Origin: Synergistaceae bacterium OttesenSCG-928-D05
Lineage (GTDB): Bacteria > Synergistota > Synergistia > Synergistales > Synergistaceae
Assembly: GCA_030266985.1 (NCBI GenBank)
Contig: JAJDJB010000003.1
Location: forward strand, 1 to 64,000
Reading direction: 5' to 3'
Length of the DNA stretch: 64,000 nucleotides
Shown here piece after piece: positions 3,819 through 7,418 of this stretch. Within the stretch, counting starts at the first letter, position 1. Each line of letters begins with the position of its first letter. Below the pieces are notes generated by a model. It was not told the origin of the DNA, ran no database searches, and saw only the letters and a list, made by a program, of their open reading frames with translations. Made by a program: the position numbers and the translations under genes.

Positions 3819-3888
3819 CAAATGTTTTTTAGCTATTTGCGTGCGGCCTTTAGCCCCGGTAATCTTCCAGCCGGGGCCGCGTTCTGCT

Positions 3889-4623
3889 TTATCGCCAGAG
3901 CGAATGGAATTTAGCGTATTCCAGCGTACCATCCTCGGTGCGAAGTGAATGCAGAAACTCCCGGCCTGTGTCATTCGGCACTTCTTCCGTCTGCGCTTTC
4001 ACGCGCACGCGGGGCACCGGGTGCAGAAACTCGCCCTCGACAAGCATCGGGGAAAGTAATTCCGGAACTTCAAAAGGCACCGTATCGAGCGCCCAGTTGA
4101 AATAAACGGCGTGGTTCGTGTGGTCGTTGACGTCCAAATCCTGCCAGCGCACCTTCCACATCTCTTCAATCTGCGGCGTCGTAAGCTCCGGTATTTTAAC
4201 CTCAGGCGGAAATTCATCCAAAACCTTTTCCGCTTCAAAACTGTATAGATCATTCCGGTCCAATCGCATCGGGCGCATTTTCACGACATCAAGCAGCACC
4301 CACCATGTAGAAGCTTCGCCAAGGTATTCGCCCGCGGCGTTCCAGAGGCGGAACGAACGCAGTGAAAAAAGTTTCCGGTAGGGTTCGTGCCACGTTTTTA
4401 TCTTCAGCGCCTTATCGTCCTTGCACGGATAACGCTCAAGCGAGACGCGATAGTTGCGAAGCACCCACGTGATGTCATTGTCCAGCGTCTGGCGCACGGA
4501 AAGTCCAAATTTCGACGCGTCGACGTCCGCCATCTCCTGAAACATTTCAAGCAGCACGCCGAATTTCATCTTCCCTTTCGGGTCGATCCCGCTGAACGGG
4601 ATCTGCAGTTCAAGCTCAGTCAT
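3889..4623 (-). CDS. Acyl-ACP thioesterase (FatA/FatB-like, double hotdog)
   Basis: The 244-residue protein fits bacterial acyl-ACP thioesterases, which hydrolyse acyl-acyl carrier protein to free fatty acid in the cytoplasm. Two hotdog repeats are expected. The second begins with the family signature DVNDHTNHAVYFNW (about 164-177), placing the catalytic Asn166/His168 pair. A WxxR-containing first hotdog precedes it. The start codon lies inside the end of the upstream CofE-like gene (ATGACTGA, 8-bp overlap), so the two are translationally coupled. How a thioesterase relates to a glutamate-ligase-like enzyme is unclear. The gene is followed by the terminator at 3773-3818. Confidence 0.9.
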   Translation of the reverse strand: MTELELQIPFSGIDPKGKMKFGVLLEMFQEMADVDASKFGLSVRQTLDNDITWVLRNYRVSLERYPCKDDKALKIKTWHEPYRKLFSLRSFRLWNAAGEYLGEASTWWVLLDVVKMRPMRLDRNDLYSFEAEKVLDEFPPEVKIPELTTPQIEEMWKVRWQDLDVNDHTNHAVYFNWALDTVPFEVPELLSPMLVEGEFLHPVPRVRVKAQTEEVPNDTGREFLHSLRTEDGTLEYAKFHSLWR

Positions 4624-5794
4624 CGAGATAATTGTCGAAGTAGCCCTGGATGTAGATGACAGGGGTCCCTTTGTCTCCGGAGCCCGACGTCAGGTCGCAG
4701 AGCGAGCCGATCAGGTCCGTCAGGCACCGCGGCGTCGTGCCGAGCGTTTCATGGCCGAACGGGTCCAGCGCGCCCTTGGATTGGATCGCTTCGCGCACCG
4801 CCTCCGCCGGGTCTTTGTCACCCGCGTTATCGGCGATATATTTGAGTTTGATCTCCTTCGGCATGCCCTCAAGGCCGTCCGTATATCCCGGCGAGACAAC
4901 CGGATCGGCTAGTTCCCAAATGCCGCAGACGGGGTCCTTGAACGCGCCGTCGCCGTAAACGAGCACTTCCGTTTTTTTCCCGGTCCTCTTCTTGAGCTCC
5001 GCCTGCACCTCTTCCGCAAACGCCTTGCTGTCGCGCGGGAAGAGCTTGACGGAATCGTCCGTCGTATAGTTCGAACCGAGCAGGCCGAACGCTTCGTTGT
5101 AGCCAGCTCCGTCGCGCACCGGCGCGCTGCATATTTCGTTCAGCGTCACCACTTTGGCGCCCGCTTTTTCCAGAATGCTGCGGTGCAGTTCACGCGCGTG
5201 GACGCTCGCCACGATTACGTTCTTCGAAAATTTCAGCGCTTCAAGCGGATTATTCGCAAAATGGATCACGATACGCTCCGGGTCGATCCCCTTATAAAGC
5301 TGCACATAGTCGACTCCCGTAAACGGATGCTTGTACTCGCCAAATACCCGGTAGAACGTTTCCTCGTCAAAACCGTCCGCGGACAGGCTTTCCAGCTTCG
5401 TATAATAGTTCATCGGTTCAATCAGCCGATTGCCCACCTCATCGCTGGGATATGAGAGCACGATATGCACCTTACCGCGCACGCCGCGCACAACCGCGCG
5501 CAGGAGCTGGTAAAAACGGTTGCGGCTCAGAATGGGAAAAACAAGCGCAATGTCGCCCTCAGGCACACACCGCCTCACATCCTCCGCGATATCGTCGAGC
5601 GTCACATAGTTGCCCTGCGCACGCGCAAGCAACGACTCCGTCACGCCGACGACGTCCCCGTCCCGGATCGTAAACGCGTCGCGCTCCGACTGCGACGCCG
5701 CAATCACGGCGTCCGCCACGATATTCACGAGATCCGCGCCCTGCGTTACCACCGGAAGCCGTATCCCTCTTGAAATTGTGCCTACCAAACGCAT
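4616..5794 (-). CDS. Coenzyme F420-0:L-glutamate ligase-like protein (CofE family)
   Basis: The 392-residue protein matches the CofE-type gamma-glutamyl ligase family: N-terminal RGIRLPVVTQGADL, a conserved GDVVGVTES stretch, and acidic and GDGAFKDPVCG segments later. True CofE adds glutamates to coenzyme F420, but no F420 biosynthesis gene is present in this window. Many fermentative anaerobes carry homologues of unknown substrate, so the specific reaction is not assigned. The frame is open 50 codons further upstream. The ATG at 5794 was chosen because of the AGGAGGG site seven bases before it. It is the first gene of a two-gene operon with the thioesterase. Confidence 0.8.
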   Translation of the reverse strand: MRLVGTISRGIRLPVVTQGADLVNIVADAVIAASQSERDAFTIRDGDVVGVTESLLARAQGNYVTLDDIAEDVRRCVPEGDIALVFPILSRNRFYQLLRAVVRGVRGKVHIVLSYPSDEVGNRLIEPMNYYTKLESLSADGFDEETFYRVFGEYKHPFTGVDYVQLYKGIDPERIVIHFANNPLEALKFSKNVIVASVHARELHRSILEKAGAKVVTLNEICSAPVRDGAGYNEAFGLLGSNYTTDDSVKLFPRDSKAFAEEVQAELKKRTGKKTEVLVYGDGAFKDPVCGIWELADPVVSPGYTDGLEGMPKEIKLKYIADNAGDKDPAEAVREAIQSKGALDPFGHETLGTTPRCLTDLIGSLCDLTSGSGDKGTPVIYIQGYFDNYLDD

Positions 5795-5974
5795 AAGCAG
5801 CCCTCCTCTTACAGGCTCTTTTTCACACGCACTATATTGTATCACTTTGGGCGCGGCAGCGCGCGAATATATTGCGCCTGGCTGCGCCGCAAGGGATATC
5901 CCCTGTTCCGGATGAAATTCCGGTTGACTTTTTCCGTCTTTCATATTAGCCTATTCAATAGAAAGTAATATATG

Positions 5975-6039
5975 ACTTATATAGGTTCGCGATATGGGCG
6001 GACGTTTCTACCAACTACCGTAAATAGTTGTCTATGAGT
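5975..6039 (+). ncRNA. Purine riboswitch aptamer, guanine-type (C74)
   Basis: The whole purine-riboswitch fold is readable. P1 is ACTTATA (5975-5981) with TATGAGT (6033-6039). P2 is GTTCGC/GCGGAC with loop GATATGG. The J2/3 segment is GTTTCTACC. P3 is CAACTA/TAGTTG (6012-6017/6025-6030) with loop CCGTAAA. The two loop sequences are the ones that form the kissing interaction in known purine riboswitches. The ligand-pairing position of J3/1 is C (6032), which specifies guanine or hypoxanthine rather than adenine. It sits about 105 bases before guanine deaminase. Confidence 0.93.
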
Positions 6040-6090
6040 TGCCCGCCGGGGTCCCGGCGCCGCACTCTGGACAGCGTCGGTAGTTTTTTT
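6013..6090 (+). promoter_or_regulatory. Riboswitch expression platform: terminator that competes with aptamer P3
   Basis: The sequence CGGTAGTT just before and into the run of seven T (6084-6090) is an exact complement of AACTACCG at 6013-6020, which is the 5' strand of P3 plus the start of its loop. This 8-bp terminator stem encloses a small GCCGG/CCGGC hairpin (6045-6058) and cannot coexist with the folded aptamer. Ligand binding should therefore block termination, so this is predicted to be an ON switch. No comparably strong terminator formed only by sequence outside the aptamer was found. Confidence 0.65.
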
Positions 6091-6143
6091 GTCGCTCCGG
6101 CAAACAAAACCCTGCGCCATGCAGGAACCGGGAGGAAAGACAC

Positions 6144-7418
6144 ATGGACAAAAGCTTCGTTTTAAGGGGAAACATTTGCTACAGCAAAAACATGCGCGAA
6201 CTGCACACGGTCCCGCGCGGATATCTGGTATGCGAAAACGGGCGCTCCGCGGGTGTTTTCCGCGAACTGCCGGGCGCGTTTAAACACCTGCCGCTCGAAG
6301 ACTTCGGGGAAAGGATAATAATCCCCGGCCTTATAGACCTGCACATCCACGCTCCGCAGTTCTCCTACCGCGGACTCGGCATGGACCTCGAACTTCTCAA
6401 CTGGCTCGATACCTACACATTTCCGGAAGAGGCAAAATACAAAAACATCGAATACGCGCGGCGCGCCTACGCGGACTTCGTCGAAGACGTTAAAAAAGGA
6501 CCGAACACACGCGCGGTCGTCTTCGCCACGGTGCACGTTCTCGCCACGGAACTCTTGATGGACATGCTCGAAGCGAGCGGGCTCGTCACGATGGTCGGCA
6601 AAGTCAACATGGACCGCAACGCCAGCCCCGACCTCCAGGAAGAAAGCGCCGAAGCCTCGGCGCGCGCAACCTCCGAATGGCTCGCAGACATCGCCGGAAA
6701 ATATAAAAACACATACCCGATCATCACGCCGCGTTTTATCCCGTCGTGCACAGACGAGCTGATGCGCGCGCTCAAAACGATACAGGCGGAACACGGCCTG
6801 CCCATCCAGTCGCACCTCTCCGAAAACAAAAACGAGATCGAATGGGTAAAAGAACTCTGCCCCGGCTCCGCCTCCTACGGCGACGCCTACGACCGCTTCG
6901 GACTCTTCGGCGGCAGCGCCAAAACCATAATGGCGCACTGCGTCTGGTCTGACGAGGACGAAAGCGACCTCATCGAGGAGCGCGGCGTCTTCGTCGCCCA
7001 CTGCCCGCAGTCCAACACCAACATCTGCTCCGGGATCGCGCCAATTCGCCGCTACATTGAAAAAGGGCTGCGCGTAGGGCTCGGAAGCGACGTCGCGGGC
7101 GGCAGCGACACATCCCTCTTCAAAATCATGCGCTCGGCAATCGAAGTATCCAAACTCCGCTGGCGCCTCGTCGACCGCTGCGACACACCGCTCACCGTGG
7201 GAGAAGCGTTCTTCCTCGGCACAATGGGCGGCGGCGAATTCTTCGGCAAAGCGGGTTCCTTCGACGAAGGCTACGAATTCGACGCCGTCGTCCTCGACGA
7301 CACGAACTTAAAATCCCCGCTCGAACTCTCGCTCAAAGACCGCGTCGCAAGAATCGTCATGTACGCGGACGACCGGAACATCGACGCGAAATTTGTCCGG
7401 GGTACGAAAATTTTATAA
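6144..7418 (+). CDS. guaD: Guanine deaminase
   Basis: The 424-residue cytosolic amidohydrolase converts guanine to xanthine and ammonia. Metal and substrate motifs are present: PGLIDLHIHAPQ (His67/His69), the guanine-deaminase signature LGMDLELLNWLDTYTFPEE (78-96), GKVNMDRN, HLSEN (His224, Glu227), AHC (His265) and SDVAGG (Asp316). Length is normal. The ATG at 6144 follows a GGAGGAAAG site. The gene stands alone and is preceded by a guanine-type riboswitch, which independently supports the substrate and implies induction when guanine is abundant. Inverted repeats and a terminator follow (7427-7483). Confidence 0.97.
   Translation: MDKSFVLRGNICYSKNMRELHTVPRGYLVCENGRSAGVFRELPGAFKHLPLEDFGERIIIPGLIDLHIHAPQFSYRGLGMDLELLNWLDTYTFPEEAKYKNIEYARRAYADFVEDVKKGPNTRAVVFATVHVLATELLMDMLEASGLVTMVGKVNMDRNASPDLQEESAEASARATSEWLADIAGKYKNTYPIITPRFIPSCTDELMRALKTIQAEHGLPIQSHLSENKNEIEWVKELCPGSASYGDAYDRFGLFGGSAKTIMAHCVWSDEDESDLIEERGVFVAHCPQSNTNICSGIAPIRRYIEKGLRVGLGSDVAGGSDTSLFKIMRSAIEVSKLRWRLVDRCDTPLTVGEAFFLGTMGGGEFFGKAGSFDEGYEFDAVVLDDTNLKSPLELSLKDRVARIVMYADDRNIDAKFVRGTKIL

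Follow-up and report, generated by a model that had tools for sequence, protein, structure and literature searches.

The leader of the guanine deaminase gene guaD in the window, the 64,000-nt stretch of DNA analysed here, very probably acts as a transcriptional ON riboswitch through which guanine induces guaD. According to this model, the nascent leader would fold into a guanine-type aptamer at 5975–6039. Without guanine, the hairpin at 6044–6059 would start a strand exchange, the segment 6064–6075 would next displace P1 and the 3′ side of P3 and take up C6032, and 6078–6085 would then capture the 5′ side of P3 together with L3. The resulting long terminator, set against the U-tract at 6084–6090, would stop transcription ahead of guaD. 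Guanine bound in the junction would keep P1 and P3 in place until the polymerase clears the tract, and would thus induce the enzyme which converts guanine to xanthine. The guanine-ON direction was foreseen in the original prediction, and the model draws support from the mutually exclusive folds, the recurrence of the arrangement before guaD in several dozen bacteria of the gut, the covariation and the OFF-type biosynthetic leaders. We infer that guanine also activates the gene in the cell. Guanine riboswitches are textbook repressors; a guanine aptamer on an activating platform would show how a riboswitch can reverse its sign and still sense the same ligand.

The guaD leader and its competing folds

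The guaD leader lies within the 349 nt that separate the guanine deaminase gene (6144–7418, plus strand) from a divergent F420-ligase-like gene (4619–5794, minus strand), in a genome assembly of 1.77 Mb which is 67% complete. The RF00167 Purine match found by cmscan (5957–6054, plus strand, 60.5 bits against a gathering threshold of 37, E 5.2e-8) was the sole Rfam match in the window. A consensus promoter scan gave no match at 5924–5952, the site of the candidate listed in Table 1, and neither scan found a strong promoter. The guaD product was identified by its alignments, since TIGR02967, the best-scoring family (ahead of the runner-up, another guanine deaminase family, by about 57 bits), gave 351 bits and lay below its cut-off of 375.4. 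The product matches PF01979, aligns with 2i9u over nearly the full length (390 bits) and, in the alignment to human guanine deaminase 2uz9, keeps the HIHAPQ, TPRF, QSHLSEN and SDVAGG-like motifs; HxHAxQ, PRF, HxSEN and D-V-A-G-G are what we take to be the metal and guanine-site residues.

Table 1 Features of the guaD leader and gene in the window
Feature	Positions	Strand	Basis and remarks
Candidate promoter TTGACT, 17 nt, TAGCCT (8/12)	5924–5952	+	Weak; inferred from a manual hexamer scan
Guanine-type purine aptamer	5975–6039	+	RF00167, 60.5 bits; the MFE structure of 5970–6062 is the aptamer fold
L2 GAUAUGG, canonical kissing loop	5991–5997	+	Rfam alignment
Terminator 5′ arm AACTACCG, P3 5′ strand plus CCG of L3	6013–6020	+	Exact inverted repeat with 6078–6085
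L3 CCGUAAA, canonical kissing loop; CCG shared with the terminator 5′ arm	6018–6024	+	Rfam alignment, fold
P3 3′ strand, J3/1 and P1 3′ strand; re-paired with 6064–6075 in the terminator	6027–6039	+	MFE
Ligand-pairing C, guanine type; pairs with G6070 in the terminator	6032	+	Rfam alignment, fold
Apical GC hairpin CGCCGG-GGUC-CCGGCG, −10.7 kcal/mol; compatible with the aptamer	6044–6059	+	Inverted-repeat and hairpin energy computation
Invading strand, complement of P1 3′/J3-1/P3 3′	6064–6075	+	MFE
Terminator 3′ arm CGGUAGUU (DNA CGGTAGTT)	6078–6085	+	Inverted repeat, MFE, covariation
U-tract, 7 T	6084–6090	+	Sequence
Ribosome binding site GGGAGGAAAG	6130–6139	+	Sequence; position relative to ATG 6144
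Guanine deaminase, 424 aa, amidohydrolase	6144–7418	+	TIGR02967, PF01979, alignments to 2i9u and 2uz9

The aptamer was complete, as originally predicted; cmscan and folding agree on the helices P1 (5975–5981/6033–6039), P2 (5985–5990/5998–6003) and P3 (6012–6017/6025–6030). The junction strand J2/3 (6004–6011) is the canonical 8-nt GUUUCUAC. J3/1 (6031–6032) is the dinucleotide UC, the C of which, also as predicted, occupies the ligand-pairing position in the Rfam alignment; C6032 corresponds to C74 in xpt numbering. The three-way junction, the canonical J2/3, the kissing nucleotides of L2 and L3 and the C at 74 are features of guanine-I aptamers, and the equivalents of U22, U47, U51 and C74 are all canonical. 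The off-consensus positions are U for A at 73 (J3/1) and G for A at 24 (J1/2). The aptamer was assigned to the guanine type because C6032 occupies the position that pairs with the ligand, and its sequence points to guanine as that ligand. An adenine riboswitch, which requires U74, was rejected because of C6032. The guanine-II variant was rejected since its J2-3 and J3-1 insertions are missing (J2/3 has 8 nt and J3/1 2 nt), and the xanthine-II variant since it needs U51G and insertions (the nucleotide at 6009 is U and the insertions are missing). The junctions of the aptamer are also without the deviations of the 2′-dG classes.

An inverted-repeat search showed that 6013–6020 (AACUACCG) and 6078–6085 (CGGUAGUU) are 100% complementary, exactly as had been claimed. 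The 8-bp pairing proposed originally is, however, only one arm of a far larger predicted terminator, which by MFE also pairs 6027–6034 with 6068–6075 and 6036–6039 with 6064–6067 and so takes J3/1, with its C, and the 3′ strands of P3 and P1. The terminator can thus form only by using up P1, P3, the ligand-pairing C and part of L3, which makes it and the aptamer mutually exclusive. Folding with and without the aptamer constraint led to the same conclusion, the MFE of 5970–6092 being −48.0 kcal/mol for the free sequence and −34.3 kcal/mol with the aptamer enforced. The aptamer fold was optimal in transcripts up to 6065 and the alternative was ahead from about 6071, with a terminator lead of 6.1–8.0 kcal/mol at 6077–6080 and 13.7 at 6086; this crossover places the decision within the last 15–20 nt before the U-tract. 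The gap of 13.7 kcal/mol is larger than the equilibrium contribution of guanine, about −3.3 kcal/mol (1 µM guanine, with an assumed KD of 5 nM), which argues for kinetic, co-transcriptional rather than equilibrium control. By analogy with the pbuE switch, the 6044–6059 hairpin is likely to nucleate the strand exchange as the equivalent of P4.

Chance and ALTERNATIVES were addressed for the terminator by a linker-shuffle test plus a comparison with post-aptamer hairpins. An 8-nt complement of the aptamer 3′ half abutting the tract arose in 0.4% of 20,000 dinucleotide shuffles of the linker, and the MFE of 6010–6092 was −39.2 against −23.9 ± 2.8 in the linker-shuffled versions (z −5.5, 0/1000). 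The terminator overlapping the aptamer reached −39.5 versus −13.9 for the best hairpin of post-aptamer sequence only (6043–6083). The original statement that 6078–6085 is the only strong terminator arm is in agreement with these values, and no stronger terminator is formed solely from sequence after 6039; the original prediction, which had named such a terminator as a refutation, thus withstands this check. The weaker post-aptamer hairpin (−12 to −14 kcal/mol), which ends 0–2 nt from the tract, may lead to some guanine-independent termination and hence to leakiness. Taken as a whole, the leader has the layout of a pbuE-type platform: the terminator forms at the cost of P1 and P3, invades L3 and is followed by a U-tract. 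The independent downstream terminator of the usual guanine-I OFF platform, which is typical of that class and does not define the family, was not found.

Purine leaders in other genomes

In the genome collection, the 80 guaD genes closest to that of the window shared 57–64% identity with it and came mostly from Lachnospiraceae; the 80 guaD proteins compared were that of the window and those of 79 of the closest loci. A sequence pattern detected an aptamer within 420 nt upstream in 64 of the 80 guaD genes, the window included. RF00167 was present in 18 of the 20 loci of one Rfam scan, and in another Rfam and the pattern coincided at all 18 guaD loci checked (L013–L058; 13 present, 5 absent). 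Distinct leaders were scored by where the last 8 nt ahead of the first U-tract hairpin find their pairing partner. Among 47 distinct guaD leaders, this partner lay inside the aptamer (ON) in 34 and elsewhere in four, and nine were without a scorable tract. The four leaders called otherwise (L005, L035, L052 and L077) had their partner in the linker; on inspection the first three look ON, with either a later tract of ON type or an arm that overlaps P1.

Several guaD loci differ in their aptamer arrangement. Tandem purine aptamers precede guaD in L018 (2175–2429) and L027 (2154–2416), the first with an ON-type terminator and the second without a clear U-tract. Divergent aptamers were seen in L051 (1955–2439), where they serve guaD and a purine permease-like gene on opposite strands, and in L057 (1956–2439). 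In L012, an aptamer with an ON-type terminator stands both before guaD (2330–2426) and before the xanthine dehydrogenase-like gene which follows (3880–3978). The purine aptamer leaders of L059, L055, L034, L091, L096 and L098 have no clear U-tract and are possibly translational. The canonical loops are replaced in many Lachnospiraceae guaD leaders (L002–L081) by an L3 of 6 nt (CCGUAA) and an L2 resembling UAAUUGG; the loop–loop contact may be weaker there and strand exchange easier.

The direction of control was compared across purine genes in a set of purine riboswitches from 150 Bacillota genomes, from which 90 leaders were fetched, together with the guaD leaders. The same automatic rule (arm-duplex, first-tract) was applied to all of them; purE, guaB, adenine deaminase and xanthine dehydrogenase genes were named with NCBIfam, and the others by clustering and by eye. 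Biosynthetic leaders (purE, purD, purK, purB, guaA, guaB, xpt) gave 16 OFF calls, one ON and one ambiguous, and guaD leaders 21 ON, four OFF and one ambiguous. Xanthine dehydrogenase leaders were ON in five cases and OFF in none, as were the adenine-type (U74) deaminase and efflux leaders in three. The Fisher p value of 5e-7 is optimistic, since related leaders were treated as independent. The OFF calls for biosynthetic genes and the ON calls for adenine-type leaders show that the rule recovers known biology. The direction of the switch follows the metabolism of the gene, and guaD groups with the catabolic and efflux genes. The four guaD leaders called OFF (L004, L005, L023 and L080) fold ON or use the P1 3′ strand on inspection; the counts were left unedited. 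A first classifier comparing the MFE of whole segments had been discarded because long spans always fold well, and so had an interim version which called 16 guaD leaders OFF, many of them through choosing a later T-run. An adenine-type (U74) aptamer with an ON-type terminator was also noted in L082 (1501–1598), before a gene which by eye resembles a relative of chloramphenicol acetyltransferase.

The terminator arm covaries modestly with P3. The fit of the terminator 3′ arm to its own P3 5′ arm was 157 against 151.8 ± 2.0 for shuffled partners (36/5000), and 155 against 149.2 ± 2.2 in a second comparison (36/10,000). Compensatory pairs were observed in the guaD leader L088 (CGGCTGCCG/CGGCAGCCG) and in L050 (CAGCTACCG/CGGTGGCTG), versus CAACTACCG/CGGTAGTTT in the window. 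The signal is modest because P3 is otherwise nearly invariant.

Purine aptamers were found in two of 188 Synergistota genomes, that of the window included, and both genomes have one before guaD; none was detected in 52 other genomes of the family to which the window belongs. The other carrier (G314) represents another family of the order and has aptamers before guaD and before a cyclodeaminase-like gene (loci L263 and L264), the latter with a 27-bp terminator which runs through P3 3′/J3-1/P1 and overlaps the aptamer. A UUAGG-type insertion in J3/1 occurs in this cyclodeaminase-like leader as well as in several xanthine dehydrogenase leaders. Within the family of the window, close guaD homologues (59%) occur in only two other genomes, and an Rfam search detected no aptamer at either guaD locus. 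The flanking genes are family-typical (mostly 65–75% on one side and about 48–70% on the other), although they lie apart in relatives; with such genes on both sides, a mis-joined contig is less plausible. The element was probably acquired horizontally from a Clostridia-like donor. The guaD tree, with its long branches, did not place the sister group of the window gene, and the donor is therefore not named.

Competing explanations and known purine switches

The L2 and L3 loops of the window, which are of the canonical kind, count against the ON reading: a stable xpt-like L2–L3 contact was reported to impede strand exchange of this type (PMC7707468). The reverse direction, in which a post-aptamer hairpin (about 6043–6083 or 6052–6082) is the real terminator and is favoured by the guanine-closed aptamer, seems very improbable. 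Such a hairpin does appear 3 nt before the tract in the aptamer-enforced MFE structure, with isolated energies of −12.5 to −13.9, but it falls short of the overlapping terminator by about 25 kcal/mol, contains either a long loop or internal loops, and is in competition with the 6044–6059 hairpin. Moreover, an OFF switch would need an antiterminator which guanine disrupts, and none is evident, the ligand-free alternative being the terminator itself; the related guaD leaders are also ON-type. We give a slightly higher, though still small, probability to another purine (xanthine, hypoxanthine or 2′-deoxyguanosine) as the main ligand. Guanine-I aptamers discriminate against hypoxanthine and xanthine only about 10-fold (PMC9295807), and the U for A at 73 and G for A at 24 would fit this possibility. 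Against it stand the canonical equivalents of U22, U47, U51 and C74 and the canonical J2/3 as a whole, the missing xanthine-II insertions and U51G, junctions unlike those of the 2′-dG classes, and a gene for guanine deaminase with its guanine-site motifs kept.

It is similarly hard to credit that the leader decayed or became uncoupled after horizontal transfer, with guaD expressed constitutively or from an internal promoter. The near-uniqueness of the element in the phylum (2/188 genomes) and the promoter, weak by consensus, agree with such a history. The aptamer core, the terminator and the U-tract are, however, intact and the arms exactly complementary, an arm arising by chance in 0.4% of the shuffles, and pairing preserved despite divergent sequence indicates selection.

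The closest known system is the adenine switch of pbuE (ydhL) in Bacillus subtilis, in which a P4/P5 terminator with a U-tract forms by strand exchange through P1 and P3 into L3 (PMC7707468). The window switch shares its fold family and ON topology but has C rather than U at the ligand-pairing position and precedes the gene of a degradative enzyme rather than of an efflux pump. Work described in the same paper produced an engineered switch with the xpt guanine aptamer on the pbuE platform (PMC7707468), of which the window switch would be the natural counterpart. Most described guanine riboswitches are OFF switches, as the original prediction had stated (PMC9295807), and all four in C. difficile are of that kind (PMC11477304). 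The guanine-I switches (xpt-pbuX, C. difficile guaA and others; RF00167) have the same aptamer architecture, J2/3, L2, L3 and C74, but generally use separate downstream terminators and are OFF (PMC9295807; PMC11477304), whereas the window terminator overlaps the aptamer and is predicted to be ON.

ON control by guanine has a precedent in the guanine-II variants of Paenibacillus phosphoribosyltransferase genes, which sense guanine and are predicted to be ON (PMC9295807). The window aptamer differs from them in its guanine-I layout without J2-3/J3-1 insertions, and its gene encodes a deaminase and not a phosphoribosyltransferase. Among the 5.39 million papers of an open library, to which most subscription journals do not belong, none was found to describe guanine deaminase under an ON guanine switch. 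The guaD leaders would make up a natural family in which the standard guanine aptamer is joined to an activating platform of pbuE type. Natural guanine-ON devices would thereby be on offer, artificial ones having been built by others. We consider it rather probable that the window switch belongs to a widespread guanine-induced purine-degradation regulon, in which guanine aptamers with ON platforms precede guaD, xanthine dehydrogenase and purine permease genes in Lachnospiraceae and relatives, and that it was carried with guaD horizontally into Synergistota. If so, the guanine aptamer would be a two-way device, the sign of which is set by the metabolic role of the gene. This would also point to direct induction of purine breakdown by guanine in gut Clostridia, with relevance to how purines and urate are turned over in the gut.

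Control of purine-degradation genes is also shared with the xanthine-I and xanthine-II riboswitches. Xanthine-I (NMT1) adjoins guanine deaminase-like genes (PMC7373994) and has an unrelated fold; xanthine-II has an ON-type architecture (PMC9295807), but its U51G and its insertions are both missing from the window aptamer.
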